NCBI GenBank assembly: GCA_949282195.1
Contig: CASDOW010000008.1
Coordinates: 1 to 64,000, forward strand
Reading direction: 5' to 3'
From: an uncultured bacterium
Lineage (GTDB): Bacteria; Cyanobacteriota; Vampirovibrionia; Gastranaerophilales; Gastranaerophilaceae
Length of the DNA: 64,000 bases
The notes under the pieces were generated by a model. The model did no database searches and was not told the origin of the DNA. It saw only the letters and a list, made by a program, of their open reading frames with translations. The position numbers and the translations under genes are program-made. Within the stretch, counting starts at the first letter, position 1. Every line of letters begins with the position of its first letter. Positions 1,499-45,905 of the stretch are shown in pieces.

Positions 1499-3829
1499 TT
1501 ATAAACCAAATACGCCTAATATATCATCTGCTATTGAGTTTCCTTTTTTATATTGTTTTAGGAAATAAGTTAACGCTTGTTCGGAGTTTTCTTTTGGAAT
1601 GTTTACCCCTTTGGTTAGTTTTATTCTTTCACTTGGTGGAAGTTTAGCAAGATTTTTTCTTTGTTGTAATAAATTTACAATTGTTTCTCTGAATTTTAAA
1701 TTGCTAACATCTTTTGCAAGTTCGGCGCTTACTTGCGCTATTAATGCCGTAGCTTGCATTTTTGAATCCATTTTTGCACTTGTGTATTTTGATAGGAATT
1801 TTTTCATATAAGATTCATATAACTCAGATAGGGAATTTTGACCTGATTTTCTGGCTTTTAAAAGATTGCCTTGAGCGGAAGAAGGAATTATTCCCAGTTT
1901 TTGCATGATACCGTCCGTTAGGCTTAATAGAGAATCGTTTGTCATGATTGGCAGTTTTGATTCTTTATCAAAAAATATTCTGTTTAATTCTTTGCTTATT
2001 AATTCTTTTGCATTTTGCCTTGTCATACCTTTGGGCAGCATTGCCCCTTCCAACACAAAATCCGTAATATTATCTACGTCTGCATTTTTAATGTAATTAG
2101 TAAGATTTATAAATCTAAGAGCTTGTTCTTTGGTTTGTTCGATTGTATTACCTGTATCAATTAAAGTGAAACAGTTTTTACCTTCTTTTAATTTTTTAAC
2201 GTCAATAAATATATTTCCGGGGTGAATATCTCCATGGATTATTCTGCCGTTAACATCTGCACTTGAGAATTGTTCAGACAAAATATCCTGATATTGTTTT
2301 AGCATTTCCAATGTTTCTTTTTTTGTTAAGTCTTGAAAATCAATATCTATGCCGATTCTTTGTTTAAATTCTGCTGTTGCTAAATCTAATTCTTTTTTGT
2401 ATTCTTGGTATTTTTTTGAATTTGTACCGTATATTTCAGCGCTTTTTTCCACATCTCTTTTTAAGATTAAAAATCTGCTGCCGAATTCATTGAAGTCTGC
2501 AAGACTTATGCCGTCTGCTCGCTCCATTACATATATATTGTTTTTAACTTCAATCGGTTTTACAACATTTGCTGTTTTTGTGCTTTTTGCAAGTTTTTTA
2601 GCTGCTTCCATTTCATTTGATAAATCAACTTCAGCTTCAACTCCTCTTGCAATATTTTCAACATTTTTAATTAAAAATTCTTTTTCATTTTGGGATTTTG
2701 TTGAAGAATTAATCATTGCAATAAAGGCTTCTTTGTCTTTTAGGATTTTTTCTTTATTAATTCCTTTATGAATTAGCTTGATACATACATCGTTGCCTTT
2801 TTCGTCTTGCGCGACGAAGGTTTGTGCTACTGTACCTACTCCGACACATGCTTTCAGTTTGTATTTATTTGCTCCAAAAGTTTCTTCAACTGCTTTTTGA
2901 GCTTCCTCTAAAGTCCAGGTTTGAGGACAATTTTCTTTTAAAGCTTTAGTTAATCTGGTTCCATCATTTTTAATTTGTTTAAATTTAAGAGCAAAAATAT
3001 TTTCTTCGCTTAAAAGCCTGATTTTTTCGGTTTCGTCTATATCCAAGTTCATTATGGCGGCAATTTTTTCATTATCAAAAAGAATATTTTCCAAGTTATC
3101 ATAAACGCTGTTGAAGCTTGTAGTTTGGGTTAATTTTGCATTTTCTAATGCTTTAACAACATTTTGCGCATTTTTTTCATATACACTCATGAATTGCCCT
3201 TTTTTGATTAAAGGAATTGCAATAGCTAATGCGCCGAGTGCATTTATTATCTTTGATGTTGAAATATTTTCTATATATGATTTTATCGATTTATTGCCCT
3301 TATCTTCTCTTGAAGCTATAAAGTATTTTGAAAGAGAATTGACAATCGCATAAATTGGTGCGCCAATTGGTCCTAATAAGCTAACTATCGGCAGTGTTAA
3401 TCCATTAATTGCTCCTGTTAAACCGTTTCTAAAATTGGCATTTTTCTTTTCTTTTTTGGTTGTTTTTTTGATTTCTTTGATTTCCTTTTTTGACATTGTT
3501 TCTTTGTCAAATTCGGGTTTATATTGTTTTGTTTTAATTCTGTTGATTTTTAAAACGTTTTCTTTAATAATTTGACCCACATACATTGCAGGTAGTGCTG
3601 CAATAATATTTATAGTTTTTTTATCTGTTGCGATATTTAATATTTTTTCTTTATCTGTTTTTGTTATAACGTTTTTTATTATACTTGGAATGTTTGAATT
3701 TTTAATTCCGTTTAAAAAGATGTTAATACCTGCTAAAGTTTTTTCCTTATTAATTAAAAGTACGGACTTAGCTTTGATAAGATTTTTATAGGCAGTAAAA
3801 AATGCCAATGCTGCTCCGCCAATAGACAA
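1499..3829 (-). CDS. UbiB/AarF/ABC1-family atypical kinase (possibly frameshifted 5' part)
   Basis: A 776-residue protein in the ABC1/UbiB kinase-like family. The kinase core has GVGTVAQ at about residues 330-336 (Gly-rich/KxGQ-like loop), an invariant-type Lys in VCIKL (about 351), the catalytic loop HGDIHPGN (about 535) and a metal-binding Asp in LIDTGNT. The first ~210 residues carry hydrophobic stretches (GGAALAFFTAYK; LTLPIVSLLGPIGAPIYAIV; ALGALAIAIPLI), so it is membrane-attached. UbiB proteins support quinone/lipid homeostasis in membranes; the substrate here is unknown. The listed start is TTG at 3829, preceded by AGGAG at a 5-base spacing. The frame stays open upstream for 31 codons to 3922, where it meets the ORF at 4176 through a -1 slippery heptamer, so the true product may be longer. 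Confidence 0.85.
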   Translation of the reverse strand: MSIGGAALAFFTAYKNLIKAKSVLLINKEKTLAGINIFLNGIKNSNIPSIIKNVITKTDKEKILNIATDKKTINIIAALPAMYVGQIIKENVLKINRIKTKQYKPEFDKETMSKKEIKEIKKTTKKEKKNANFRNGLTGAINGLTLPIVSLLGPIGAPIYAIVNSLSKYFIASREDKGNKSIKSYIENISTSKIINALGALAIAIPLIKKGQFMSVYEKNAQNVVKALENAKLTQTTSFNSVYDNLENILFDNEKIAAIMNLDIDETEKIRLLSEENIFALKFKQIKNDGTRLTKALKENCPQTWTLEEAQKAVEETFGANKYKLKACVGVGTVAQTFVAQDEKGNDVCIKLIHKGINKEKILKDKEAFIAMINSSTKSQNEKEFLIKNVENIARGVEAEVDLSNEMEAAKKLAKSTKTANVVKPIEVKNNIYVMERADGISLADFNEFGSRFLILKRDVEKSAEIYGTNSKKYQEYKKELDLATAEFKQRIGIDIDFQDLTKKETLEMLKQYQDILSEQFSSADVNGRIIHGDIHPGNIFIDVKKLKEGKNCFTLIDTGNTIEQTKEQALRFINLTNYIKNADVDNITDFVLEGAMLPKGMTRQNAKELISKELNRIFFDKESKLPIMTNDSLLSLTDGIMQKLGIIPSSAQGNLLKARKSGQNSLSELYESYMKKFLSKYTSAKMDSKMQATALIAQVSAELAKDVSNLKFRETIVNLLQQRKNLAKLPPSERIKLTKGVNIPKENSEQALTYFLKQYKKGNSIADDILGVFGL

Positions 3830-3879
3830 TAAATCTCCTACTGTTTGAGCTGTATTTTCTTGCGAGCGTCTGTAATTTT

Positions 3880-4176
3880 TTATTTCTTTTTCAACTTCTT
3901 GGACTGTTTTTGTGCCTTTTTTGTTTCATTTATCGATTGTTCGATTTTTTTTGAGCTAAAACCTATATTTGTTGCACTTTTGATTTTGTCTGCTATTTTT
4001 TCAATTAGTCCGTTTTGCTTTTTTGCCTGCTCGAATTTTTCATTTAATTCAAAAGAGTCTATTTCTTTTGGAATTGAAACACTTTGTTGAGACAATGTAT
4101 TTTTAGGTGTTTGATTTAATAAGGTTTTATTTTTTGCCAAATTAAGGTATTCATTAAATGACGGAATATTGTTCAT
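3880..4176 (-). CDS. Short upstream ORF, probably the N-terminal part of the AarF kinase protein
   Basis: A 98-codon ORF starting at ATG 4176 behind AAAAGAGA, ending in a Lys-rich tail (KKLKKK) at 3880. It looks soluble and helical, with no family match by eye. At 3922-3916 the message reads A_AAA_AAG in this ORF's own frame. A -1 slip there enters the frame of the kinase gene and continues through coding-like sequence (VQEVEKEIKNYRR, then QENTAQTVGDLL) into the kinase's first hydrophobic segment. Either this is the N-terminus of one split or recoded gene, or it is a small separate protein translationally linked to the kinase. The continuous coding character after the slip favours the first. 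Confidence 0.55.
   Translation of the reverse strand: MNNIPSFNEYLNLAKNKTLLNQTPKNTLSQQSVSIPKEIDSFELNEKFEQAKKQNGLIEKIADKIKSATNIGFSSKKIEQSINETKKAQKQSKKLKKK
3916..3922 (-). other. A_AAA_AAG -1 frameshift heptamer
   Basis: The minus strand has ACA AAA AAG GCA in the frame of the 98-codon ORF, which contains the heptamer A AAA AAG in exact register. This is the same heptamer used for -1 frameshifting in Escherichia coli dnaX. Slipping back one base reads GGC ACA AAA ACA and enters the kinase frame, which has no stop from here to 1499. I see no strong hairpin just downstream and no good Shine-Dalgarno stimulator upstream, so an ordinary one-base indel in the A6 run is equally possible. Confidence 0.5.
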
Positions 4177-9748: not shown

Positions 9749-10180
9749 TTATTTTTTTAAAAATAACTCTTTTTCTTTTTTTCTTCTGTTGATTAAACCT
9801 TTTGATTTCATTTTGTTACAATAAATCCATTTATCAAATTCATTTGAAGCTTCAAGGTATCTCTTTTTGTTTAAGAGTTTTAATAATGTTGAATTTTTAA
9901 AAGCATTTATGCCGATATTATATTCAAAGGAAATAATTGCATCAAACTGATTTTGAGTCAATGGGACATTTATCAGATTATTTACATTGTTTGCGTGAAT
10001 AATTAAGTCTTTAATAAGAAGATTTTCGGCTTCTTTTTCGGTTATTTTTTGTTCTTTAAATACATCTTTTCCAGTGTGTCCATAGCCTATTGTTAGAACT
10101 CCCGCCGGGCATTTATAAGCCTTAAGGCTTAAGCCTTCAAAATTTTTAATTAAATCAATTCCATTTTTTGATATATTCAT
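9749..10180 (-). CDS. Phage endolysin, GH24 lysozyme
   Basis: 143 residues from ATG 10180, chosen because GAGG lies 9 bases upstream; a TTG at 10195 would add five residues. It is a T4-type muramidase that cleaves the glycan strands of peptidoglycan: FEGLSLKAYKCPAGVLTIGYGHTG, with catalytic Glu15 and Thr30. The position usually held by Asp20 of T4 lysozyme is Cys24, a substitution common in phage GH24 enzymes. The family's FDAIISFEYNIG segment follows. There is no signal peptide, so it depends on a holin or similar. It overlaps the end of the membrane protein at 10155 by 26 bases: a typical lysis cassette. Confidence 0.92.
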   Translation of the reverse strand: MNISKNGIDLIKNFEGLSLKAYKCPAGVLTIGYGHTGKDVFKEQKITEKEAENLLIKDLIIHANNVNNLINVPLTQNQFDAIISFEYNIGINAFKNSTLLKLLNKKRYLEASNEFDKWIYCNKMKSKGLINRRKKEKELFLKK

Positions 10181-10406
10181 TTTGAATATCCTCAATGTCT
10201 TCTATTCTGTGGTTTTCGACTTTTAATTGTTCTTTTAAGACGGATATTTCTTTTTCGTTAAAATATGTTCTCTCAATTATCGAATTATGTTTATCTTGCT
10301 TGATTTCAAGAGCTTGTATGCTTTTTTCTATAACTCCCATTTTATGAGCAAAATATAGTGCCTGTATAATTACACTTATAAATATTCCAAGTAATTCATA
10401 GTTCAT
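10155..10406 (-). CDS. Phage lysis-associated membrane protein (holin or spanin-like)
   Basis: 83 residues starting at ATG 10406, which overlaps the stop of the DUF1353 gene as TAATG. It has a single N-terminal transmembrane segment (LLGIFISVIIQALYFAHKMG) and then a long charged coiled coil to the C-terminus. Position directly before the lysozyme, with overlap, suggests a lysis role. The N-in, TM-then-coil layout fits an inner-membrane spanin subunit or a small holin/hemolysin-like protein. The exact class is undecided. Confidence 0.65.
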   Translation of the reverse strand: MNYELLGIFISVIIQALYFAHKMGVIEKSIQALEIKQDKHNSIIERTYFNEKEISVLKEQLKVENHRIEDIEDIQNEYIKKWN

Positions 10407-10876
10407 TAATCTGTCCAAAATAATTTTTGATAATTGTCAACACTGTGTTTAATAAGCCATCTTGAAATCGGGTTCACTTCTGAAACATAAAGCAATCTTT
10501 CAAAGACTATTGTTGAAAAATATCTGTCGTTATTAATGTAATCATGGTTTTCACATAGTACATCGTGAATTAATGACGGAATTAAAAATTTTGGGTCTGT
10601 TTTGGGTCCTATAAGCCGCCAGAAAATTCTTGGAATTGTTGCTCCGTCCCAACAATATCCTTTTTTAATCGTAAAATCGTATTCATTTAAGAGTGTTTTA
10701 TCTGTCAAAACAACATTTAATTCTTTTTGGTTTTGAAAGGGAAGTTTTTTAATTATTTCTTTTTCTGTTTCATTCATGTTTGGTTGAATATATCTCAGTG
10801 TTATTTTTGGAATATCTGAAAATAAAATTGTTAATTCTTCGTCATTATACCATTCTATCAATTTTAAAATCTCCAA
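10406..10876 (-). CDS. Phage protein, DUF1353 family
   Basis: 156 residues, likely TTG start at 10876 (TTG 10861 is better spaced from GGAG). The central block YCWDGATIPRIFWRLIG followed about 20 residues later by LIHDVLCENHDY is the DUF1353 signature, seen near the lysis genes of many tailed phages. The function is not known; the conserved Trp-Asp and His-Asp residues suggest a hydrolase-like or structural role. The downstream lysis gene starts within its stop codon. Confidence 0.8.
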   Translation of the reverse strand: MEILKLIEWYNDEELTILFSDIPKITLRYIQPNMNETEKEIIKKLPFQNQKELNVVLTDKTLLNEYDFTIKKGYCWDGATIPRIFWRLIGPKTDPKFLIPSLIHDVLCENHDYINNDRYFSTIVFERLLYVSEVNPISRWLIKHSVDNYQKLFWTD

Positions 10877-10909
10877 GTAAAATTAAAACCTATTTTATTT
10901 TTTGAAATT

Positions 10910-11086
10910 CTAAAACTTTTCAATAAATTCCAAAAGAGTTTTTTTAATCCCTTCTTTAGCTTTTTCAATTATTAAATCCTTTTTTTCTTTAAATAAAATT
11001 TCTGCTTTTTCTTTTAGTTGTGGTAATTGGGCTAAAATGTCTTTAATTATTCCCTCAAAAATTTTTTTCCTTATCCATTTAAACAT
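10910..11086 (-). CDS. Small phage protein, amphipathic
   Basis: A 58-residue ORF with a good ribosome site (AAAGGAC, 7 bases before ATG 11086). The sequence alternates hydrophobic and Lys/Glu residues (FKWIRKKIFEGIIKDI, then KEKAEILFKEKKDLIIEKAK), predicting one or two amphipathic helices. It fills the 221-bp gap between DUF1353 and the fibre-associated gene on the operon strand. No family recognised; a lysis or membrane-binding role is possible but unproven. Confidence 0.6.
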   Translation of the reverse strand: MFKWIRKKIFEGIIKDILAQLPQLKEKAEILFKEKKDLIIEKAKEGIKKTLLEFIEKF

Positions 11087-11097
11087 TTTTTTGTCCT

Positions 11098-11589
11098 TTA
11101 AATTAATTTTGTATAATCATTTGTTTCAAAAAATTCATCAAGTTGTTGACTTGTTAAGCCCAATAATGTGCCAACTTGATTTATATAGGGATTTCCACGA
11201 TAAAAATTATTAGCTTTTAATTCAATCTTTAAAGCTTTAATATCAATCTGTGGTGTTCCATCTTCCGCCAACGGTTGCGCCTCAACAAGAGCTACAATAT
11301 CATCAAAATCAAGCCCCTTTGCTTTATATATTGCACGCTCTACATCTGCTGCTGTCAGGTTAAGCATGGCTATTCTTTCTTTTTCTTTTTGTGCTTGTTC
11401 TTGTTGATATTCTTCTGTGTCTGCAAAAACAAAATAAGTACCGTCATTTGATAAACCTATCGGTCTTTGTGTTTCTTTGATTTCTAAATTTTGTAATTCA
11501 GGGCGGTGTTTAAGCATTAAATTAAATTGTTCTAAACTTGTGTCAAATCTTATAATTTTGTTATCTTGTTCTATATAGTAATTAGTCAT
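11098..11589 (-). CDS. Phage tail-fibre-associated protein (possible fibre chaperone)
   Basis: 163 residues from ATG 11589, chosen for the AAAAGGAG 7 bases upstream and the 8-base overlap with the fibre gene's 3' end. The N-terminal part describes substrate features (DNKIIRFDTSLEQFNLML, then GLSNDGTYFVFADTEEY). It is followed by a Gln/Glu/Lys helix and a compact C-terminal domain with NFYRGNPYINQVGTLLGL. Position immediately after the fibre gene is where tail-fibre assembly proteins sit. Family not recognised with certainty. Confidence 0.6.
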   Translation of the reverse strand: MTNYYIEQDNKIIRFDTSLEQFNLMLKHRPELQNLEIKETQRPIGLSNDGTYFVFADTEEYQQEQAQKEKERIAMLNLTAADVERAIYKAKGLDFDDIVALVEAQPLAEDGTPQIDIKALKIELKANNFYRGNPYINQVGTLLGLTSQQLDEFFETNDYTKLI

Positions 11590-12520
11590 TATTTGCTCCT
11601 TTTGTATAGATAAACTTAAAGAAATCAACTGTGCCAAAATAAGCTAAAGATACTGTATCACCCTTAGCAGCAGGTAAATAAGCGGAAATATTAGAACTGC
11701 CTGATGATTGTAATTCGCTTTGAATATTTTTTGTTTGATTTGTTAGTGCAAGTCCGCCATTACTTATTCTAAAACAATACCAACCGTCAGCAGGAGCTGT
11801 ATAAGTTGCACTGCTTGCGTCTACTGTTAAATTGTCGAATTTTGATGAGGGGAAAGAATATGAGCCAATAAGTTCTTTTGTTGTGCTTGTTATATTTGAA
11901 AGGCTTTTATCCAGTTTATTTTCAAGGTTGTTTTGTATTGAGGTTATTGCGACTGTATTTACATCAATTTGATTGAATTTTTCGTAGTTATCGTTAATGT
12001 TTTGAGAAATGTTTTTTAATTCATCATATTTTTCATTTATATCCGAAGCTATGTTTGTTACAAGTAATGCTGATGAATTTAATTGATTATAAAGTTCTTC
12101 AGGGGTTTGATCCGAGAATTCGGATACTTTTATAGTCAGTTCTAATTTTCTTGATAATATTTGAATTAATCTTGTCAGGTAATCAAAAGAATACTCGAGT
12201 GCTTCTAAGTTTAATAATGAACTGTTATTGTATTGAGTTTCTTGACTTATCGGGAGGGTTAATTCGAGCGAGATTTTTTCGTTTTCTGATAGAATATCGT
12301 AATTTGATGAACTTATAGGAAAAGTTATGTAACTCCCGTTTTCGTTTTTTATTTCGTTAATGCTGTAATCTATTCCGTTTTGGAGTGTATGTTGAATATT
12401 TTCTTTATCGAAAAGAGTTACTTTTAGTTGTTCTTCGTTATCAATATAAAAATCAAATTCAAATATGGTTGTAGAATTATTTCCGGTATAATTATTTACC
12501 GGAGTTATGTCATATATCAA
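11582..12520 (-). CDS. T7-type phage tail fibre protein
   Basis: 312 residues. The first ~120 residues match the virion-attachment domain of T7-like tail fibres: YTGNNSTTIFEFDFYIDNEEQLKV, a YSINEI strand segment, and LEALEYSFDYLTRLIQILSRKLELTIKV. A coiled-coil region follows (about 140-205). The C-terminal part (about 210-312) is beta-rich, with SATYTAPADGWYCFRISNGG and Ser-rich strands, and is likely the receptor-binding tip. The start overlaps the preceding gene's stop as ATGA. The fibre is short, so the particle probably recognises one surface glycan or protein. Confidence 0.82.
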   Translation of the reverse strand: MIYDITPVNNYTGNNSTTIFEFDFYIDNEEQLKVTLFDKENIQHTLQNGIDYSINEIKNENGSYITFPISSSNYDILSENEKISLELTLPISQETQYNNSSLLNLEALEYSFDYLTRLIQILSRKLELTIKVSEFSDQTPEELYNQLNSSALLVTNIASDINEKYDELKNISQNINDNYEKFNQIDVNTVAITSIQNNLENKLDKSLSNITSTTKELIGSYSFPSSKFDNLTVDASSATYTAPADGWYCFRISNGGLALTNQTKNIQSELQSSGSSNISAYLPAAKGDTVSLAYFGTVDFFKFIYTKGANND

Positions 12521-12957
12521 TTTTCCTCCTTTTTAAAATAAAATAATTTAAATTTTTTATCGTTAGTGTCTAAAATTTTAAAGCCGTATTTTTTGAGCCA
12601 AATAAGTGCATCAAAATTTTCTAAGTATATATAATTAAATAAAATTGAATACTCTTTTTTAAACTTTTCAATTTTGGAGAATATATACTTCATTAAATAA
12701 AATCTGTTTTTATGTGCATATTTTGTGCATAATAGCCATAACTGCGCAGTAGAGTCGTTAATTTTTTTAGCTCCGCCGATTGCAATCGGATTATTATTGT
12801 CGTCAGCTAAAAAATATGCATTCTTTTTGTTTTTCAAACAGAGTTCAATAAAATCTTCTTTGTTTTTTATATAAAAATCCAGTTCTTTTTTGTCGCTTTT
12901 TCTTAAATTGTCATATAGCAATTTAAGATTGTCTTTGTTTATATTCATTTTTTTCAT
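12517..12957 (-). CDS. GNAT-fold phage protein, T7 gp13/DUF2833-like
   Basis: 146 residues with an acetyltransferase-like fold: NAYFLADDNNNPIAIGGAKK followed by AQLWLLCTKYAHKNRFYLMKYIFSKIEKF and FNYIYLENFDALIWLKKYGFKIL. In T7-like phages a GNAT-like protein of this type (gp13, DUF2833) sits between the nozzle and the internal virion or fibre genes and is needed for particle assembly. The start overlaps the nozzle gene's stop (ATGA), so the two are translationally coupled. An active acetyltransferase cannot be excluded. Confidence 0.65.
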   Translation of the reverse strand: MKKMNINKDNLKLLYDNLRKSDKKELDFYIKNKEDFIELCLKNKKNAYFLADDNNNPIAIGGAKKINDSTAQLWLLCTKYAHKNRFYLMKYIFSKIEKFKKEYSILFNYIYLENFDALIWLKKYGFKILDTNDKKFKLFYFKKEEN

Positions 12958-15011
12958 TGTGACTCAACTTCTTCTAATGAAATTGTTGCGTTTATTGCTA
13001 ATATTGACAGCGGAAGCGGGTATTTTTGTACAATTTTAATATTTTTTTGAGGAGCTCTGTCCGCAAGCGGACAAAATTCAATGTCTTTTGAATATAATTT
13101 TTTAGGATTGTTAATGCTGTCATGGCTTCTTGGGTTTTGACTTAAGCTATTGTTGTCATTTTGGATAAAGAAATCTTCTCTGGAGTTTAGTATTTTTACT
13201 TCAACCTTATTAATCATTTTATTAATTCCTAATGTCCCTTGTGATTCTAAATTCAGGGTCTCAAGCTCAAAGTCATATCTTAAGCCGATAAATATATCTT
13301 TTGCCGGGTATGGAAGTTTTAAAACGCCGTTTTCATTAATTTCTAAATCTTCAACTACGCCCCAATCAGCCAAGGCATTTACTTTTGTATTTTTTAAATG
13401 ATTTAAATTGCTGATTGTGTCTGTTTTCTCTTCAAAGTTAAAACTGGTTGAGCTGTCTAAAAATTTTGAATTTTCAAGAGAAGTCACAATTCTTGAATAA
13501 AATCTTTCGATGTAGCATACTTTTTCATTATTTATTTCTCTTTCAACAACAAAATATGCAATATCTTCATAATTTTCTCTAATAACGGCAACGCTTTTAA
13601 ATTTTCCTTGGGTTGTATGAGTGTGCCAAGCGGCAATTTTTTGCGTGGGGTTATATGTTAGGGCGCATAAATTTCCGTCATCCATTACGCACCAAAGAAT
13701 TCTGTTTGGCTCTTTAGAATATGCCATATCAATTATTTTTCTGCCTTCAAAAAGATGAGAAGCAAATAGAGTTAATTCTTCTCCGTCGTATGAGTCTGAA
13801 AGGTAGTCATATCCCAGATTTCTGACAATGTTTCCTCCTGACTGTACAAATAACACCATAGAACCCGATACAACAGGTTTGATTTTAGATGAGCCGTAGT
13901 ATGATTGCAATTTGGCATATGGGGAATTTGATGCACTCATAACTCCGTCAGACCCGTTAACCGACCATTCTGCATTCGTTGTCATAACAATTAAATTGTC
14001 AAGAGGTATTAAATGCTGAATATTGTTTGCAGTATTATCATAAATCGACATAGTAATTGAATCTGTTGCATTCAGGGGTCTTGAAATATTAAAATTATCA
14101 TTTGTACCTGTTTGACTCATCCATAGTGTTTGAGGAGAAGCATTTGATGCGGCATAAATTTTTCTTTGTTGAAAGTAACAGACGCATGAGGGGCCTTCGT
14201 TTTCAAATGGGTTTGTGTGCGTAGGTGCGCAACTCGATAAATCGGGCTCAATATTATTGTCTTTAAACGAGGTTGTGTTTGATGTTCCTACATAACCGTA
14301 TATGCCGTTTACGCTTCTGTATATATTGTATTCACAAGCATTTTGAACAGCCGACCAAGAAATTGTTATATATTCTGATGTTGTCCAATATGCTTCTAAG
14401 TGTCCAACAACAGATATTGGTGAACTTTTAGAGCTTTCTTCAAAGCTGTCTTTATGAACCGATGTAACAACATAGCTATAAGTTGTGGTATTGGATGCAG
14501 TTGAGCCAACATAGCTTATTGACAGATTACTTGGAGCTTCAATTGTTGCTTTAAAATTAATTTCTTCAAATCTCCAATCGTCGTTAGCATATCTTGATAG
14601 ATTGTATGGCAAAAAGTTTGCGCAAGTCAGTGTAATAACGTCTGCTTGCTGACAGTAGTCAATGTTGAAGATATCATTTTCGGTATACGGGCTTTCAATT
14701 TCGTAGATTTCCTCGTTTTTTAAAATATATCCGCCGTCTTTAATTATTCTTATATATTTATCTCCAAACTCTAAAATGTAACTTTCATTAAGATTAAAAA
14801 CAAAAGGAATTAGTCTTGTTTTTTTGTCGGAGTATTTTGCTTTTTCAAGAAATTCAAGGCCGGAGCGATTAACAACGCATCCTTCTTGAAGCACTAAGCC
14901 GTTTTTTAAATTTTTTAATCCGAGATTATATTGTTCTAAATCAACTCTTCCTTGCAAGGACGGGGATAAAATTCCTTTTGAAAAAGAATTTTGACATACT
15001 CTTATACTCAT
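12954..15011 (-). CDS. Phage tail nozzle / tubular protein B (T7 gp12-like)
   Basis: 685 residues. The N-terminus has the conserved nozzle block: FSKGILSPSLQGRVDLEQY, GLKNLKNGLVLQEGCVVNRSG, RLIPFVFNLNESYILEFGDKYIRI, then FNIDYCQQADVITL. Residues about 160-260 look like an inserted fibronectin III-like domain (SNLSISYVGS...TTYSYVVTSVHKDS). The middle part (FNISRPLNATDSI; LIVMTTNAEWSVNG) is the usual beta-propeller-like core. It forms the tail tip tube through which DNA exits. The length is a little shorter than T7 gp12. It lies directly after the adaptor gene. Confidence 0.85.
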   Translation of the reverse strand: MSIRVCQNSFSKGILSPSLQGRVDLEQYNLGLKNLKNGLVLQEGCVVNRSGLEFLEKAKYSDKKTRLIPFVFNLNESYILEFGDKYIRIIKDGGYILKNEEIYEIESPYTENDIFNIDYCQQADVITLTCANFLPYNLSRYANDDWRFEEINFKATIEAPSNLSISYVGSTASNTTTYSYVVTSVHKDSFEESSKSSPISVVGHLEAYWTTSEYITISWSAVQNACEYNIYRSVNGIYGYVGTSNTTSFKDNNIEPDLSSCAPTHTNPFENEGPSCVCYFQQRKIYAASNASPQTLWMSQTGTNDNFNISRPLNATDSITMSIYDNTANNIQHLIPLDNLIVMTTNAEWSVNGSDGVMSASNSPYAKLQSYYGSSKIKPVVSGSMVLFVQSGGNIVRNLGYDYLSDSYDGEELTLFASHLFEGRKIIDMAYSKEPNRILWCVMDDGNLCALTYNPTQKIAAWHTHTTQGKFKSVAVIRENYEDIAYFVVEREINNEKVCYIERFYSRIVTSLENSKFLDSSTSFNFEEKTDTISNLNHLKNTKVNALADWGVVEDLEINENGVLKLPYPAKDIFIGLRYDFELETLNLESQGTLGINKMINKVEVKILNSREDFFIQNDNNSLSQNPRSHDSINNPKKLYSKDIEFCPLADRAPQKNIKIVQKYPLPLSILAINATISLEEVESQ

Positions 15012-15015
15012 TTGT

Positions 15016-15609
15016 TTATCCTCTGGAATCTAAATATGTTAGTTCGTCATCTATTGTTTCTACGCCTTCTTGTGCGTTTAAAACTTTTGCTCTTTTTATT
15101 AGCTGATTGTACTTCTCGTAGGCAATTTCGCCTTTTTGTATACTTCCTACAAGTACATTTGCCGTAAGTGAGGCAAGGTAGTACGATAATGCCATTGCAA
15201 ATTCACAAGAGAAAAATATTTCTTTCTCAACACGTCTTGTATATCTTAGTATTGCATTTTCAACATCGCACAAGATTACTTTTTGCCCGTTTGACAGTGA
15301 TGAAATTGAATATTTTTCAATTGCGTACGAGTTTTTTCTGAAAACATCGCGTGTACAAATGCAATCGTTGGGATAATTGTAGCAATATTTATATTGAAAT
15401 TGCGAAACAGGGTTTTCACAAAGTGCCAGTTCTTTGAAAGTGGATGCAAAATTCCAGTCAAAGTCTTTTAATACGTAATCTCTGGCTAATTCATAATAAT
15501 TGTTTAATAAAATTGCACGATTGTCGGTTGAATTTCCGTTTTCAAGCGGCATTGAAACCCCAAGTATATTTAGGGTTATGTTGAATATTTGCGCTTTTGA
15601 TTGTGTCAT
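15016..15609 (-). CDS. Phage tail adaptor / tubular protein A (T7 gp11-like)
   Basis: 197 residues matching the gp11-type head-tail adaptor: SKAQIFNITLNILG at the N-terminus, LARDYVLKDFDWNFASTFKELAL, YKYCYNYPNDCICTRDVF, and C-terminal FAMALSYYLASLTANVLVG with helix KYNQLIKRAKVLNAQEG. It links the portal to the tail nozzle. The ATG at 15609 abuts the stop of the upstream gene, and the nozzle gene starts 4 bp downstream. Family assignment rests on motif order and synteny. Confidence 0.82.
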   Translation of the reverse strand: MTQSKAQIFNITLNILGVSMPLENGNSTDNRAILLNNYYELARDYVLKDFDWNFASTFKELALCENPVSQFQYKYCYNYPNDCICTRDVFRKNSYAIEKYSISSLSNGQKVILCDVENAILRYTRRVEKEIFFSCEFAMALSYYLASLTANVLVGSIQKGEIAYEKYNQLIKRAKVLNAQEGVETIDDELTYLDSRG

Positions 15610-16110
15610 TTAATCTCCTTTGTACCAATTGGAAGCCACTTTATTAGTGGAGCCAAGGTAATTTATGGCTTTTGAATATAAGTTTGCATTGTAGTAACTT
15701 GTATCTAAGTTTGCATTATTTAAATATTCGTTTGCTTTATCTAAATATTGTTTTGAAATTAAATCGTAACTCTTTTGTGTTTCTTGGGCTTCAGAGTCTG
15801 CATAGTCAAGAGTGTCTTGAAAATTCATAAGATTTGTGTCTGAATTTACATCAAAACCCATTGCGCTCGCTTTTGCTATTTGCTCGTTTGCTTGTTTTTT
15901 GCCTTCAAGTTTTTGTTTTCTTGCTTCTTCTATCCCTTTTTGTTGTTGGTATCTTGATTCATTTATTGAATTTTTAGCATTAGCAATTGCAACTTGTGTT
16001 TGATATTCTTGTGTTTTTGCGTCTTGATATAAATTTGTTAATTCATTTGTTACGCCAAAGATACTGCTTCCTACTTGCAGGGCGGTATTAATAACTGTCG
16101 GAACACACAT
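15610..16110 (-). CDS. Phage internal virion protein-like (gp14-type)
   Basis: 166 residues, Ala/Gln/Lys-rich and mostly helical: TNLYQDAKTQEYQTQVAIANAKNSI, EARKQKLEGKKQANEQIAKA, then ASAMGFDVNSDTNLMNFQDTL. This helical layout, with the MCVPTVINTALQVGSSIFG start, is typical of small internal virion/ejection proteins that precede the tail genes in podoviruses. GGAG lies upstream of ATG 16110. No counterparts of the large T7 core proteins gp15 and gp16 are present, so DNA ejection must be simpler or use fewer parts. Confidence 0.65.
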   Translation of the reverse strand: MCVPTVINTALQVGSSIFGVTNELTNLYQDAKTQEYQTQVAIANAKNSINESRYQQQKGIEEARKQKLEGKKQANEQIAKASAMGFDVNSDTNLMNFQDTLDYADSEAQETQKSYDLISKQYLDKANEYLNNANLDTSYYNANLYSKAINYLGSTNKVASNWYKGD

Positions 16111-16132
16111 TTTTTACTCCTTTTTTTAAAAA

Positions 16133-16155
16133 AATGTGGGCATAATGCCCACATT
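16133..16155 (-). terminator. Terminator-like hairpin between head and tail genes
   Basis: A perfect 10-bp stem (AATGTGGGCA/TGCCCACATT, loop TAA) lies in the 53-bp gap after the cement gene. On the minus strand it is followed by a T-run of about five. It could partially end transcription after the capsid and cement genes and so lower the level of the downstream tail genes. Confidence 0.75.
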
Positions 16156-16163
16156 GGATTAGG

Positions 16164-16550
16164 TTATATTACATTATTTTCATCTGCAGCAACGACGCCG
16201 GCTGTTATTTTTCCTGTTGTTTCGGCGGTTCCTGTTACTGTATAAACAATTCTCATATAGCCTTTGTTTCCTTTTGGAAGAAAATTAATCGGAAATCTTT
16301 GCCCTGCTTTTAAGTCGGCCAGTTCAAGTGTAGAAGTTACTAAATCTTCGCTTGATGAAAAGTCTTCTTCTTGGCTGGTTTGTACTTTTACGGTCAGTGA
16401 AGTCAGGTTTGTAAAATCTTCTACAACTTGAATTAATAAAGGGGCAAAAGAAACGTCGCCTTTCCCAAAATAAACTGTGTTATCCGAATTAATTGAGCCT
16501 GTTGTTATGGCTTGATTTTCCGAAAATAAATTTTGAGCATCTAATAACAT
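16164..16550 (-). CDS. Capsid cement protein (Bbp16-like)
   Basis: 128 residues: LLDAQNLFSENQAITTGSINSDNTVYFG at the N-terminus, then LLIQVVEDFTNLTSLTVKVQTS and FLPKGNKGYMRIVYTVTGTAETTGKITAGVV. This beta-rich pattern is that of the small Bbp16-type protein next to the major capsid gene in Bordetella phage BPP-1 relatives, which decorates or stabilises the shell. It lies 14 bp after the capsid gene, with GGAG upstream. It is followed by a strong hairpin. Confidence 0.8.
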   Translation of the reverse strand: MLLDAQNLFSENQAITTGSINSDNTVYFGKGDVSFAPLLIQVVEDFTNLTSLTVKVQTSQEEDFSSSEDLVTSTLELADLKAGQRFPINFLPKGNKGYMRIVYTVTGTAETTGKITAGVVAADENNVI

Positions 16551-16564
16551 TTGTATCTCCTTAA

Positions 16565-17566
16565 CTATGCGCTTACAACTCTTTTTTCATCATTTCTCAA
16601 TTGATCTGCACATTTAACAGGTATTCCCAAGAATGATACAATTGGTTTACCTGCAAAGTTTTCAATTGAAAGATTTACGTTCGCTTTATTTATTGCTTGG
16701 AAGTGCAAATATGTTTCAATTGTTTCGTTGCAATAAATTACGGTGTTACCTGTTTTAGCGAAGCGTTTAATTCTGTGGTAGGCTTGAATCATCAGTTTGA
16801 TTAAATCGGCGGGACTTGAGCCGTCAAGTGCGGTTACGTCAATATTTGCAATTCTTGCTGTTGAGCGGAAATCTCTTACGGTCATCCCTATATCCCATTT
16901 GAAGTGATCGCGATATACTTCAAACATGTTTCCGTTTGCGTCTGTTGCGGTTTGTGCACCTTTGTTTTCGTGTATTAAGCCCATTTGAGAGCCTTTTGGA
17001 TATAAAAGATGAGTATGTAAATCTCCCCAAGTGATAAACCAAATGGATGTATTTTTATTTCCTGTGCCGCCGCCGTCTAAGACTCTGTATCCGATTGAAT
17101 TTTTATCTGTTGAAATCTTGTTATATCTTACGCTTAAACCGTCAAAACCCGCAGGATTTGTTGCTTTAGAACCATAAAAGATATTTTCTTGAACGGTATT
17201 GTTCATAGATTCCAAGAAAGCTTGCGCTTCATTCATTCTAAATTGGTCTGTATCGCCTTCAAGGTCTGCAAGCGATTTATCAACCTGAGAATAAACTTCA
17301 AGCATTCCTGTTGTATCTGTTATTTGAGTGTATTCACCTTTTGAAGCAGATACGCCTTGATAAAATTTTCTAAATTCAACTTCCGGTAAGCCGTTTCTAA
17401 CGGTGGTTTTATGGGTTGAACCTTCGTTACATTCCCTTACAACCGCATCTTCAATAAGTACATTTGATTGAGCCAATAAATCCACGATTGTTGTTGCAAT
17501 TTTGCCGTTTTCTTTTTGTGCAAATTTGTCTTTTAAGGTTAAATAAGTATTTCCAACTGTTGCCAT
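16565..17566 (-). CDS. Phage major capsid protein (BPP-1/podovirus type)
   Basis: 333 residues with an HK97-like layout. Helical N-arm (YLTLKDKFAQKENGKIATTIVDLLAQ), then the conserved block LPEVEFRKFYQGV, SASKGEYTQITDTTGMLE, and a spine-helix region QFRMNEAQAFLESMNNTVQENIFYG followed by PAGFDGLSVRYN. The end has VKCADQLRNDEKRVV. It forms the icosahedral shell. AGGAG precedes ATG 17566, and the gene sits between the scaffold and cement genes, as in BPP-1-like phages. It lacks a separate protease domain. Confidence 0.9.
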   Translation of the reverse strand: MATVGNTYLTLKDKFAQKENGKIATTIVDLLAQSNVLIEDAVVRECNEGSTHKTTVRNGLPEVEFRKFYQGVSASKGEYTQITDTTGMLEVYSQVDKSLADLEGDTDQFRMNEAQAFLESMNNTVQENIFYGSKATNPAGFDGLSVRYNKISTDKNSIGYRVLDGGGTGNKNTSIWFITWGDLHTHLLYPKGSQMGLIHENKGAQTATDANGNMFEVYRDHFKWDIGMTVRDFRSTARIANIDVTALDGSSPADLIKLMIQAYHRIKRFAKTGNTVIYCNETIETYLHFQAINKANVNLSIENFAGKPIVSFLGIPVKCADQLRNDEKRVVSA

Positions 17567-17581
17567 AATTTCTCCTTTTTA

Positions 17582-18133
17582 CTAATCTCTTGGTCCGTAT
17601 AAAATTTGAGCTGGTGTAAGCTCCTTAACGGCAGGTGTGCCTTTGTATGATAAGCTGTCTTCTTTTGTCAATTCTCCGATTTTGAAAAACATTTTTATCA
17701 TTTCGGGGTGATAAATTAAACCCGTTGATTTTAAAAGTTCTTTTAAATTCGGGCTTGCAAATTGACTGTAGGCATTGTTTGCCGTTTGCATGTATTCTTT
17801 TAGCTGAAGTGAATTTGAGCTTGGTATGTTTCTATCCTGTTTAAATAATTCTGTATATTTTGTTGTGTTTTTTTCTTGCATTGTTTTCTCGTCAATTTTA
17901 TAAATTTCCTTTTGTTTTTTTGACATTTCAAGTGCAAGTTCTAACAACAAATCCAGTGATTCTTGTGATAGATTTAGTTTTTTTGCAATTGGAATAAGTT
18001 TTCCGGTTAATTCATCATCCAAGCTAAAATCTTCGTCAGCTAAAAATTTAGAAAAATTGTATTCTTCACATAATTTATTGTTTTCTTCCTGTTCGTCTTG
18101 TAAACAATAGTTACTTTTTAAATTTTCTTGCAT
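17582..18133 (-). CDS. Probable phage head scaffolding protein
   Basis: 183 residues, acidic N-terminal half (NNKLCEEYNFSKFLADEDFSLDDEL) and a helical centre (LIPIAKKLNLSQESLDLLLELALEMSKKQ). The C-terminal signature YHPEMIKMFFKIGELTKEDS resembles the HPEMVKLLAKIGK-type motif seen in scaffolds encoded just before podovirus capsid genes. Position 15 bp upstream of the capsid gene fits. The plus-strand cargo gene begins just beyond its start, so this is the point where the phage operon is interrupted. Confidence 0.72.
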   Translation of the reverse strand: MQENLKSNYCLQDEQEENNKLCEEYNFSKFLADEDFSLDDELTGKLIPIAKKLNLSQESLDLLLELALEMSKKQKEIYKIDEKTMQEKNTTKYTELFKQDRNIPSSNSLQLKEYMQTANNAYSQFASPNLKELLKSTGLIYHPEMIKMFFKIGELTKEDSLSYKGTPAVKELTPAQILYGPRD

Positions 18134-18158
18134 TTTTATCCTTTCTATGTGGTATAAT
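18128..18158 (+). promoter_or_regulatory. Promoter of the plus-strand cargo gene
   Basis: An extended -10 element TGGTATAAT (TATAAT at 18153-18158) lies 28 bp upstream of ATG 18186. A weak -35 candidate TTGCAT (18128-18133) is 19 bp away. AAGAGGAG then gives a strong ribosome site. The cargo gene can therefore be expressed independently of the phage operon. Confidence 0.6.
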
Positions 18159-18185
18159 TACTCTTAAGAGGAGTTATTTAGTTTT

Positions 18186-18611
18186 ATGAAAAAGACATTG
18201 ATTATTGGTTTTGTATTTGTTGCTTTTATTTGTTTTGTTTCTTGCAATATTTCATTTGCGCAGACTGATTTTTCAAAGGCGCTTAGAACTTGTGAAACAT
18301 TTAGACAAGACGGAAGCATTACCCATAATGGCGAAGTTTTTAATTTGACAATTACTCTGGACAAATCGAGAAACAAGTGTGTATATAAAGAAAAAATTCA
18401 CCAAGGTAAAAAATATCAAATGTTAACTTGTAATTTTGACAATAATCAACTTCCTGCCATGGCTGATTCAATGGATAAATTCACAAATTATTACAAAAAA
18501 GAGATTGCAAAAAATAAAATCTTTGAAGCAAAGATGACAACTAATGGCGAAGTTTTCCAAAAATATCTTGCTAATCCTAAATATTGTTCAATTACTCACT
18601 CTAAGAATTGA
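18186..18611 (+). CDS. Small secreted protein encoded inside the phage module (moron-like)
   Basis: 141 residues with a signal peptide (MKKTLIIGFVFVAFICFV core, cleavage near SFA/Q at about residue 25; an alternative lipobox-like FVSC is weaker). The mature part holds four cysteines (CETF, NKCVY, LTCNF, KYCSI), suited to two disulphides, and a compact alpha/beta pattern. It is the only plus-strand gene in the phage module, between scaffold and an unknown head gene, with its own extended -10 promoter. Its 3' end overlaps the convergent gene by 11 bp. It may alter the host envelope or be a host gene captured by the module. No family recognised. Confidence 0.75.
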   Translation: MKKTLIIGFVFVAFICFVSCNISFAQTDFSKALRTCETFRQDGSITHNGEVFNLTITLDKSRNKCVYKEKIHQGKKYQMLTCNFDNNQLPAMADSMDKFTNYYKKEIAKNKIFEAKMTTNGEVFQKYLANPKYCSITHSKN

Positions 18612-19518
18612 TTAAACTTTTAAAATAATTATTTTTTGCATTTTTTGAGTTATTATCTTGAAATATCTGCATACGTTTTTTAATTAGTTCAAGCTGATTT
18701 TCAAGTTCCAGTTTTGAATTTTGCGAAATATAGTATCGAAAATCATTTTCTACTTGCTTGATAAAATCTATTGTTGTATCTTCATTTTTTAGATTTAAAC
18801 TTTCTATAGCGCAATCTATAAGAATAATAGTATCTTTTATGAAATTCTTTTTGTAGGTGTTTAATTCATTTTGAATTTTTTTAAAATAAGTTATATCTTC
18901 GTTTGATAATTTTTTTGTATCAAAGTTTAGCGATAAAAATTTTTCTTCATTTTCAAGAATTAATTTTCTTAATTCAATAAAATATTTTGAATCTGTTTTT
19001 ATCTTTGGTTTTTGTTTTAAAAAGTCGTTATCTTTGGAATTAAGTGCATTGATTATTTTTTTATTAAAATCTTTTATAAGTTCTGTTTGCACTTTTTTAT
19101 CTAAATTCATCACACCGCTATACCATGAAATTGCGCATAGGCCTCTATTGTAGATTTTGTCTGTGTAATTTTTGTTGGTTTTATTTATGGAAACATAAAG
19201 CGCTAAATTACTTATTATATTTTCATAGACTTCTTTTGCCCATATTGCAGCTTGTGAATTATAGTGTTTTTTAATTTGATAGATTAATTCGTTTCTTTTT
19301 TCTTGTATTATTTCATCTAAGTTTTCAAAATCAATATCATCGCAAAGTTTTATTGCTTCATTATCAAATTCTTCTACAACATTAATTGCTTCATCAATTG
19401 CCTGTTTAGAATTTAAATTTACATAACCTTTTTCTTTTGAATAAAGAAGTTCATTAATTAAGTTATCTAAGTTGTTTATAAATTCCAGATTTCTTATGCT
19501 TTTTGCTAAATTGTTCAT
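18601..19518 (-). CDS. Phage protein of unknown function between portal and scaffold
   Basis: 305 residues, strongly helical with repeated Lys/Glu/Asn heptads (for example DNEAIKLCDDIDFENLDEII, YFKKIQNELNTYKKNFIKDT, LELENQLELIKKRMQIF), so long coiled coils are expected. No signal peptide or membrane segment. A short conserved-looking segment LCAISWYSGVMNLDKKVQ lies mid-protein. Position between portal and scaffold suggests a head-assembly or internal protein, as BPP-1-like phages also carry an uncharacterised gene here. Assignment is by synteny only. Confidence 0.6.
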   Translation of the reverse strand: MNNLAKSIRNLEFINNLDNLINELLYSKEKGYVNLNSKQAIDEAINVVEEFDNEAIKLCDDIDFENLDEIIQEKRNELIYQIKKHYNSQAAIWAKEVYENIISNLALYVSINKTNKNYTDKIYNRGLCAISWYSGVMNLDKKVQTELIKDFNKKIINALNSKDNDFLKQKPKIKTDSKYFIELRKLILENEEKFLSLNFDTKKLSNEDITYFKKIQNELNTYKKNFIKDTIILIDCAIESLNLKNEDTTIDFIKQVENDFRYYISQNSKLELENQLELIKKRMQIFQDNNSKNAKNNYFKSLINS

Positions 19519-19528
19519 TTTTTTAACC

Positions 19529-21163
19529 TTATATTATGCCAAACCTTGCCAATAAATCACTTCCAAAAGAATCAACTCCGCCCATGTTTTGCAGAATTTG
19601 ACTTCCTTCTTTTGCCATTTGTATTTGCGATTGTTGATTTTGGTTTTTAAGATTTTCTTTTCTTATTTTGTCCATTTCTGTTTTTGAAACCAATTGTGAT
19701 GGTGAAATATTTGCATATGTTGCATAGTCTTCAATTATTTTTTCTGCATTTAATTTTTGTTTTAATATTGGGTCAATTGAATTTGCAATATTTGAAACAA
19801 AGGTTGTAAATCGTTCCATACTTGAAATATTTGCTACTTTTTGTGCTTGTGCAAGAGTTGAAACAAATTCTATTTGAAATTTGGAGTTTGAATATTTATT
19901 GTTTAGAGGTTCTAAAATCCCTGTTTTAATTTCTTCGTCGTAAATCCAAAAAAGAATTTGTTTCAGTGAATTATGAATTTGTTCTAATAGGGGTGATAAA
20001 AGAACCATTTTTTCTTCTTTTAATTCATTAACTTCTGTTGCTGTTCTTCCTCTTTCCGCTGTTGATAAAATCATTGCAAAAAGGTCGTTATAGAAATGTT
20101 CTTTAATTATTTGTTTTAATTCGTCTTTTTCTTCTTTTAATTCTAAAATTCTCGGATTTACTTCATAAACAGGGCTTATACCTCTGCCGTTTTCATCTTC
20201 TTCTATATATGCTCCGGGGACATCGGCGAGTTTTTTATTTTTTAAACTGGCAGGACCCTTATAAGCCGGACAAACTATTTTTTTAACGGCTTTTGCATAC
20301 TCTTTAACCATTGTCATCAATTGTTTAACATCAGCTAAAGCGCAAATTCCGGGGGAATCTTGAGGGTAGTCAAAGTCGCTTGTAAAGCCGGATTCAAAAA
20401 CAACATAAGGGAATTTGTCAAAACCTTTTATGGATAAAAATTCGTTTTTCCCTGATAAAATAACAACAGAAACATATTTTGCAAATTGTGATGAAAGTCT
20501 TTTTTCTTTGTAATATTTATTTTTTTCCACATAATGCATTACTTCAAAAAGTTTATAGGGGTTGTTTTTAACAGCTTCTTTAATTACATCAGGGCAATTT
20601 TGCCCGTAATTTTCATAGATATTTTTAGCAGTTTCACTGTATACCCTGCAAAAAGTGTCGACTATACCTTGGGAGTTTTTAGCGTAATAGTATGAGCCGA
20701 TTGGCAGAATTCTGAAATTAACTACATTTTCATAATCTGATTCAAGACCTAATGCGCTAAACCCGAATACACCCAATTGTTTGTATATTTCAGGTAAACA
20801 CTGATAAAAATTCGAACTGTACAGTATTTTTCTTGTTAGCTCTTCTTGTTTGTGGCACCATTTTTTTAGATAAAAATTATTTTTTTCATCATTGTCGTCA
20901 AATGTTGTTTTAAACCAGCGAGTTGTCGGGCTTGTTGCGCCGCTCATCATACCTGACGAGAAATTTCTCAGTGCAATCAATGGAGTGGAATCTATAATTT
21001 TTTTGCTTTTTGCAATCGGTTTTCTTATGTTTCTAACAAGAAACTGCGTGCTTCTTGGAAGAAAATAATCGGACAGTTCTTGCAGGTCAGGTTTTATAAC
21101 GTTAAAAATTTCTTCCAGCTCCTGTTTCCTTTTTTGAAAATATTCAACAGTATAAAAGGTCAT
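19529..21163 (-). CDS. Phage portal protein (head-to-tail connector)
   Basis: 544 residues with podovirus portal features: an N-terminal FLPRSTQFLVRN, then ALRNFSSGMMSGATSPTTRWFK, PEIYKQLGVFGFSALGLE, FRILPIGSYYYAKNSQG, and VVFESGFTSDFDYPQDSPGICALADVKQ. A Cys-Pro-Ala block (VCPAYKGPASLK) and RTATEVNELKEEKMVLLSPLLEQ form the wing/crown helices. It is the dodecameric DNA gate at one capsid vertex and the docking site for the terminase. It starts 1 bp after the small linker protein gene's stop. Confidence 0.9.
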   Translation of the reverse strand: MTFYTVEYFQKRKQELEEIFNVIKPDLQELSDYFLPRSTQFLVRNIRKPIAKSKKIIDSTPLIALRNFSSGMMSGATSPTTRWFKTTFDDNDEKNNFYLKKWCHKQEELTRKILYSSNFYQCLPEIYKQLGVFGFSALGLESDYENVVNFRILPIGSYYYAKNSQGIVDTFCRVYSETAKNIYENYGQNCPDVIKEAVKNNPYKLFEVMHYVEKNKYYKEKRLSSQFAKYVSVVILSGKNEFLSIKGFDKFPYVVFESGFTSDFDYPQDSPGICALADVKQLMTMVKEYAKAVKKIVCPAYKGPASLKNKKLADVPGAYIEEDENGRGISPVYEVNPRILELKEEKDELKQIIKEHFYNDLFAMILSTAERGRTATEVNELKEEKMVLLSPLLEQIHNSLKQILFWIYDEEIKTGILEPLNNKYSNSKFQIEFVSTLAQAQKVANISSMERFTTFVSNIANSIDPILKQKLNAEKIIEDYATYANISPSQLVSKTEMDKIRKENLKNQNQQSQIQMAKEGSQILQNMGGVDSFGSDLLARFGII

Positions 21164-21164
21164 T

Positions 21165-21371
21165 TTATTCTCCTAAAAGTGTTTTTTTGTTTGGATTTTG
21201 ATTATCTTCAAGACCTGTTGGTGATGTTTTTATATTTTGACTAAAGCCTTTGTTTGAATTAATGTTTGTGCTTTTCTTTGTTAATGAGGCGTCGGCTTCG
21301 TGACGTTGCACTTTTTCCTCTACTTCAGGTACTGCTGCTGTTACTTTTGGTGATTTTTGAATAAAACACAT
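21165..21371 (-). CDS. Small phage protein next to the portal
   Basis: 68 residues: MCFIQKSPKVTAAVPEVEE at the start, ADASLTKKSTN in the middle and NIKTSPTGLEDNQN...KTLLGE at the end. Small MC-starting proteins with an ADA..KK centre and a TSP.GL..TLLG ending occur between terminase and portal genes of several podoviruses. It looks disordered and may bridge head proteins. The same MC start is seen in the internal virion-like protein at 16110. Function unknown. Confidence 0.65.
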   Translation of the reverse strand: MCFIQKSPKVTAAVPEVEEKVQRHEADASLTKKSTNINSNKGFSQNIKTSPTGLEDNQNPNKKTLLGE

Positions 21372-21389
21372 TTTATTATCTCCTTTCTT

Positions 21390-22712
21390 TTAATCAAACG
21401 GTTCAAATTCTGCTTCAACATAGTTTTCATTGTTATCGGTGTATGGATTGTATGCGTTTAGGCAATAATTGATTGCATAAAGTGCCATCATAGCGCAATC
21501 AGCAAAATCAGGGCTTTCATTGTTTTCTTTTCTTAGTTCTTTTTTATCTTTAATTGCTATTAAGCCGTTGGGTTTATAAACTTTTTTGATGTATTCAAGC
21601 TGTCTTATTGTGTTTTTGTCTGTTAATTTCAAATATCCTTTATCAAGAAAATCTCTTAAAGCTAAATATCCGTCAGCTCTTGCATTTAGTGCATATTTTG
21701 ATATAGCCTTTTTTGCACCCCTAAAACCGATTGCGTTAGGAATTATTTTTTGAATGCTTATCCAAATCGGATAACCGAGTCCGTCGGCGTCAATTATCAA
21801 TAATTTTGGCATCCAAGATGAGTACAGGCTGATTATTTTACCCTTTGTTATGTCGGTATCTGCTTCTGACCAGCTATTTGTAAATTTTTCAAGCCAAATA
21901 TTTTGATTTTCCTGTACAAAATATTTAGCTACGCATAAATCGGCTCCTGATGCCGATAAATCTACGCTCATAACAGAATTAAACATAAAACTTTCATCTT
22001 TTTCATATTTTAAATTGATTGCGTCATCAATCATTTTTGAACTTAGAAGATATTCATTATTATTATTCAATGGGTATCCGAGCCAGATATGGTTATAATC
22101 ATTCAGGTTGGTTTTTTTAGATATTTCTGCTTCTTTTTTGATTTTTTCATCCACATAAGGATTGTCAAAATAGCAAATGTTGATATGCAGACAATCATCT
22201 CTTTTGGCACAAAAATTATACACAGAATCAAATCTTGTGTATCTGTTCATGGTGAATATTATTACAGAATTCTTTTTTCTGATAGTAGGTACGATGACAT
22301 CAAGTGTTGCTTTTGCTATTGATTGAGCTTCATCTATCCATAATATATCAATACCTTCAAGTCCTTTAATATTGACTTTTCCTTGTTCTCTAAAGCCTTT
22401 AAAAAATATTTTTGAGCCTGTTTTTTTATGAATTAAAATATCTCTTTTAATTTCGTAGATTAATTTATATTTTTCAATTAAATCCAAAAAAACCGTTCTG
22501 ACTGACTCATTGATTGAGTTTTGGATTTCTCTGCCGCAGCAAATTCTTACATGGCGCATTTCCATTATATAAAGTAAAAATCTGGCTACACTTTGTGTTT
22601 TGCCTGAGGCTCTGCCGCCTTCTAAAAGAAAATAACTAAAGTTATTAAATTTAAAAATAAAAGGATATAATTTAGGTGGAATGTTTAAAATTTCCGGTAA
22701 TATTAAATCCAT
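21390..22712 (-). CDS. Terminase large subunit
   Basis: 440 residues, PBSX-like packaging motor. The ATPase domain has Walker A GGRASGKT (residues 32-39), a CGREIQNSINESV segment, Walker B ILWIDEA (about 123-129) and coupling motif FTMNRY. The nuclease domain has metal-binding acidic residues in VDLSASGAD (about 248), LIIDADGLG (about 308) and SPDFADCAMM (near 420). It pumps DNA into the procapsid and cuts it. All catalytic motifs are intact, so a packaging function is plausible. Confidence 0.93.
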   Translation of the reverse strand: MDLILPEILNIPPKLYPFIFKFNNFSYFLLEGGRASGKTQSVARFLLYIMEMRHVRICCGREIQNSINESVRTVFLDLIEKYKLIYEIKRDILIHKKTGSKIFFKGFREQGKVNIKGLEGIDILWIDEAQSIAKATLDVIVPTIRKKNSVIIFTMNRYTRFDSVYNFCAKRDDCLHINICYFDNPYVDEKIKKEAEISKKTNLNDYNHIWLGYPLNNNNEYLLSSKMIDDAINLKYEKDESFMFNSVMSVDLSASGADLCVAKYFVQENQNIWLEKFTNSWSEADTDITKGKIISLYSSWMPKLLIIDADGLGYPIWISIQKIIPNAIGFRGAKKAISKYALNARADGYLALRDFLDKGYLKLTDKNTIRQLEYIKKVYKPNGLIAIKDKKELRKENNESPDFADCAMMALYAINYCLNAYNPYTDNNENYVEAEFEPFD

Positions 22713-22716
22713 TATT

Positions 22717-23025
22717 TTAGCTGAAATCTTCTCCGATATTTAATTTTAATTGGGTTCCGTCTATCATAATTTCTCCCATTTTTACTACTGTGCCGATTTC
22801 GAGATTGTTTTGCGAATATAGACCCGCAATTTTTGCTTTGTTTTCAACTGCCCTTAAGGCAGCTCCAATATTAGGGTTTCCGTTTTTATCCAGACAGTTT
22901 AGGGCGATTTTTTTGAGTTCGTCAAATTCCTCTATTGCTTTATTTTGATTGTAGGTGTCGTGTTTTTCGTTAATTTTAAGAGTATTTTGTGATTCAAATT
23001 GAATTATTTTATTTTCATTTTTCAT
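22717..23025 (-). CDS. Probable terminase small subunit
   Basis: 102 residues directly before the large terminase (4-bp gap), overlapping the previous gene by ATGA. It holds a helical segment FDELKKIALNCLDKNGNPNIGAALRAVENKAKIAGLY, typical of short terminase small subunits of PBSX/BPP-1 relatives, and a C-terminal beta tail (VVKMGEIMIDGTQLKL). A clear N-terminal HTH for site-specific DNA recognition is not visible. If absent, packaging may be non-specific or headful, which matters for a gene-transfer-agent interpretation. Confidence 0.7.
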   Translation of the reverse strand: MKNENKIIQFESQNTLKINEKHDTYNQNKAIEEFDELKKIALNCLDKNGNPNIGAALRAVENKAKIAGLYSQNNLEIGTVVKMGEIMIDGTQLKLNIGEDFS

Positions 23026-23402
23026 ACATCAATTTTTTTAACAAGAGCTTTATTTCCGCTAAAATCACAAGCATATTGTTTTAGGGCGATTATTTTTCCG
23101 TTTTTCTTGATTTCTTTATTTATTCCGTATTTAAACCCTGAAGGAGCTTTGTATTTATATTTAAAGCCAAGCATGGTTGAAACAACGTCTTTTTTATATT
23201 TTTCTTTAATTCTTGTAACTCCGCCGGAGTAGAAATATTGTTCGATAAATGTGTTTGTATTGGTGTCCATAAAAGATAATAAGGCAATATTTTTGTTGCA
23301 TATAGGACATTTTGCAAGGTATATTCTTCTGTTTGTGTAATTATCTTTGTCTAATAAAAACCAAATATCATCAGATGAAAATACACTATTACAATGACGC
23401 AC
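23022..23402 (-). CDS. First gene of the phage module: small zinc-finger-like protein
   Basis: 126 residues, GTG start at 23402 behind a strong GGAGGAG. It contains a zinc-knuckle half site LAKCPICNKNIALL (residues about 31-44) and a Cys later in QYACDFSGNKALVKK. The C-terminal half is basic and beta-rich (LGFKYKYKAPSGFKYGINKEIKKNGK). Promoter-proximal position and the putative zinc site could fit a regulator or packaging factor. No family recognised. Confidence 0.65.
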   Translation of the reverse strand: MRHCNSVFSSDDIWFLLDKDNYTNRRIYLAKCPICNKNIALLSFMDTNTNTFIEQYFYSGGVTRIKEKYKKDVVSTMLGFKYKYKAPSGFKYGINKEIKKNGKIIALKQYACDFSGNKALVKKIDV

Positions 23403-45886: not shown

Positions 45887-45905
45887 GAAAGACAAGGTTT
45901 GAAAA

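Follow-up and report, generated by a model that had tools for sequence, protein, structure and literature searches.

On present evidence, the split gene for a kinase-like membrane protein on the minus strand of the window (the whole 64,000-nt stretch of DNA that was analyzed) was best read as a gene broken by an ordinary frameshift, or else as a one-base slip in sequencing, and not as a programmed frameshift, a result that removes one candidate programmed frameshift. A natural and recent one-base frameshift in an accessory gene was the probable cause. Two overlapping frames were found in this source genome, that of a gut-type bacterium with 30% GC. The first was an ATG-initiated ORF of 98 codons (3880..4176, minus strand), in which residues 1-86 of an N-terminal module, alignable with the N-termini of fused orthologues, were followed by ~12 codons read out of frame and then by a TAA stop; searched alone against Pfam, it gave no match. 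The second frame, -1 relative to the first, was open for 808 codons from stop to stop (1499..3925, minus strand) and carried the remainder of the N-terminal module, hydrophobic segments and an ABC1/AarF-type kinase domain; a TTG-initiated ORF of 776 codons (3829..1499, minus strand) lay inside it. The preliminary description had placed the heptamer A_AAA_AAG within the short ORF in X_XXY_YYZ register and had proposed a -1 slip there into the open kinase frame. Both observations were confirmed: the heptamer was in register at 3922..3916 on the minus strand, with its A6 run at 3922..3917, and a -1 step at this site joined the frames into a protein of 892 residues that aligned with its relatives from end to end.

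Relatives of the gene were sought in 58 related genomes and were present in 11, the window's own genome among them. The nearest relative (G020) was ~71% identical across the whole kinase frame and was encoded in a single open frame of 892 codons. In six others (G024, G018, G010, G014, G009 and G047) the gene likewise occupied one frame, 906 to 1126 codons long, as it did in G280, G256 and G168, three more relatives of full length. The junction was open in all seven relatives in which it was read (G020 and the six others named with their lengths), and A_AAA_AAG was absent from all seven. The protein alignment crossed the junction without a break (INETK followed by KGTKTVQEVEKEIKNYRRSQENTAQ in the window; IEDAK followed by NGTKTVEEVKDEIKNYRRSQENTAQ in G020). 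At the codon level, GCG AAA AAT GGT ACA AAA ACC GTT in G020 corresponded to ACA AAA AAG in the window, continued in the -1 frame by GGC ACA AAA ACA GTC, with one A missing relative to the fused frame. Since the relatives were fused in a single frame, the -1 frame is ancestral and the A run of the window lacks one base. No neighboring genes in common with the window were found in the relatives examined, so that flanking synteny added no evidence.

The orthologue alignment, a check that the preliminary description had itself named, thus went against programmed -1 frameshifting, the first of the three readings offered there, in which slippage at the heptamer would give this lineage two products, one of 98 aa and a fused one of 892 aa. 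The exact register of the heptamer, the 808 codons of open -1 frame and the conservation of both frames all fit such a mechanism, and A_AAA_AAG is the most slip-prone type of heptamer, very efficient when stimulators are present. However, neither the heptamer nor the two-frame layout was kept by any relative read, and the tail of the short ORF was simply the conserved sequence of the fusion in a shifted frame. No SD-like element was present within 40 nt upstream of the heptamer, and the best downstream fold, among nested folds, had an MFE of 0 to -1 kcal/mol, less stable than those of almost all shuffled sequences. The gene therefore shares with dnaX-type frameshifting (E. coli dnaX, IS911/IS3 transposases) an in-register A_AAA_AAG and an open -1 frame, but differs from it in having neither an SD-like stimulator nor a detected hairpin, in a heptamer that relatives do not conserve and in a -1 frame that is the ancestral one. 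Taken together, these results made programmed frameshifting very unlikely.

The heptamer itself was not unusual. Base rates were taken from 464 kb of stretches of the window's own genome, comprising 353 genes and 125,186 codons. In-register A_AAA_AAG occurred 46 times in these codons and in 44 of the 353 genes (12%), a frequency that also speaks against a programmed site; its occurrence in register here is no more than chance expects. The feature that does exceed chance is the relation between the two frames, which encode the two halves of a single conserved protein. Among the A7 runs of the sampled genes, 92 of 448 (~20%) had the phase and the following G that give an in-register heptamer after loss of one A, so that roughly one such loss in five would produce the exact register seen here. 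An A_AAA_AAG found in register where a gene is broken is for this reason weak evidence in a genome of 30% GC. In E. coli, A AAA AAG is found in 68 genes, and spontaneous frameshifting during canonical translation amounts to 1e-4 to 1e-5 (PMC9307594). In E. coli reporters without a stimulator, heptamers raised -1 frameshifting at most ~10-fold over a background of ~0.055% (PMC4066793). The A6 run is also short for transcriptional slippage, against which a large proportion of genomes show evident selection at nine nucleotides (PMC1088944). That the run serves this lineage as a functional -1 slip site, or as a switch between A6 and A7 that turns a membrane kinase-like protein on or off and so sets its dose, was highly improbable.

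In the preferred reading, the gene is ordinarily one uninterrupted frame of ~890 codons encoding the N-terminal module, the hydrophobic segments and the ABC1/AarF-type domain, and one base would have been lost from the A run at codon 87-88 in this genome. Translation from the ATG would then almost always stop after 98 codons, leaving an occasional spontaneous -1 slip on AAAAAAG, or inefficient initiation within the gene, as the only routes to the kinase part. We infer that living cells carry the base loss and are left with little of the product. Poly(A)-run frameshifts occur as pseudogenes, strain variants or slippage-rescued genes of endosymbionts. The present case resembles those of AT-rich bacterial genes in its one-base A-run indel, its 30% GC genome and its intact downstream frame.

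The gene showed no sign of decay. Between the window and G020, dN was 0.22 and dS ~2.6 in the N-terminal part, 0.07 and 1.3 just past the junction, and 0.19 and 1.16 in the rest of the gene. With outgroups, 12 amino-acid changes were assigned to the window branch and 8 to the G020 branch in the N-terminal part, compared with 50 and 60, respectively, in the rest of the gene. These comparisons, coarse because synonymous sites were near saturation, point to purifying selection on both halves without acceleration on the window branch. The downstream kinase motifs VCIKL, HGDIHPGN and DTGN were intact. The undecayed state of the gene indicates that the base loss was recent, or was not real.

The second of these cases, a sequencing or assembly indel in an organism whose gene has seven A's and runs in one ordinary frame, was considered possible but doubtful. 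It would account for the fused orthologues, the intact kinase motifs and the purifying selection in both halves, and the site is a homopolymer A run. However, open genes of this assembly contained many runs of A7 or longer (448 A7 and 85 A8 in the sampled genes), and only 1 of the 140 genes that could be compared between the window genome and G020 was split, namely the kinase-like gene, indicating that the assembly is not indel-ridden. The reverse comparison, of G020 genes, gave no split among 142. A generally noisy assembly was unsupported as an explanation, no other split gene having been found among the 140, and a suspected second split gene near 45886-46107 proved to be open throughout. 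A protein scan and exact patterns with room for additional bases at the A run, applied to genome contigs, viral contigs and genus genomes, recovered no sequence of the species besides the window. As a matter of judgement and not of measurement, a real mutation or strain variant was given about double the likelihood of a sequencing or assembly error. Of the readings in the preliminary description, the natural split and the A-run indel were thus retained; the programmed frameshift was set aside on account of the fused orthologues, the missing stimulator and the commonness of the heptamer.

An independent lesion was observed in another relative, G101 (L124, G101:C7, ~22815-23138), in which a Glu codon of the N-terminal module had become an in-frame TAG. 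This copy was otherwise ~92% identical in DNA sequence to its intact counterpart in G194, and, as in the window, its kinase frame was open downstream. The near relatives of the gene, in G194 and G089, were both intact, showing that natural disruption occurs in this patchily distributed accessory family.

A natural split could also be rescued by initiation within the kinase frame, with the short ORF left as a separate product or as debris. The AGGAG-TTG proposed in the preliminary description as an internal start at 3829 was present in the sequence (3827..3839, minus strand), within the codons GTA GGA GAT TTA TTG and with AGGAG 5 nt ahead of the TTG. The intact kinase frame would suit its use, as would the open kinase frame kept by the independently truncated G101 relative. 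However, the AGGAG fell within conserved V-G-D codons and was not conserved itself: in G020 the equivalent codons were GTA GGT GAT TTA TTG, a single synonymous base (GGT for GGA) removing it. Comparable internal in-frame pairs of SD and start were found in 28 of the 353 sampled genes, and initiation at this site would forfeit the N-terminal module. Nothing marks selection for an internal start here. The AGGAG-TTG may supply some kinase protein, whereas rescue of the gene by this route was extremely unlikely; the natural one-base frameshift remained the favored reading.

The 808-codon frame matched Pfam ABC1 (PF03109) with an E-value of 2.2e-14 and a score of 53.6 bits (cut-off 22.9), and no other PF03109 gene was found in the genome. 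The H.D..PGN and D.G motifs were represented by HGDIHPGN and DTGN and were conserved in the fused orthologues. The UbiB family motif is KxGQ; KFKQ was found at the corresponding position. The score against the UbiB equivalog TIGR01982 was 47.2 bits, far under the cut-off of 487.55, so the earlier label of AarF/UbiB kinase was narrowed to ABC1/AarF-like and the name UbiB was dropped. The protein resembles ABC1/AarF/UbiB proteins in its profile match and in HGDIHPGN and DTGN, and differs from them in adding a lineage-specific N-terminal module and hydrophobic segments.

This N-terminal module, common to many different long proteins, is the more interesting lead. The first 150 residues of the G020 protein were matched in 110 of 286 genomes from the order, and the open frames concerned varied widely in length. 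The window genome contained two further copies of the module, in frames of 375 and 300 codons without a PF03109 match. The usual location of the module within longer frames indicates that the 98-codon ORF is the head of a module normally carried by a longer protein. The pattern was roughly L..LE.AKK.NG..EK..D..K...G.GS.K.E..I....G..T.E.....I..YR..Q, and in many long proteins of the bacterial family that otherwise differ from one another it preceded hydrophobic segments, often rich in glycine; some of these proteins had an ABC1 kinase-like domain and others no Pfam match. Besides the window copy (3880-4176, minus strand), examples were L114:1183-2307, L115:1100-1999, L127:220-5046 and L126:1133-9784. 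The module could serve these proteins in common for targeting or for insertion into the membrane. Elsewhere in the window, a prophage-like block lay ~5.5 kb from the kinase gene (9749-23402, minus strand) and contained lysozyme-like and tail/portal/terminase-like ORFs, as judged from their translations alone.
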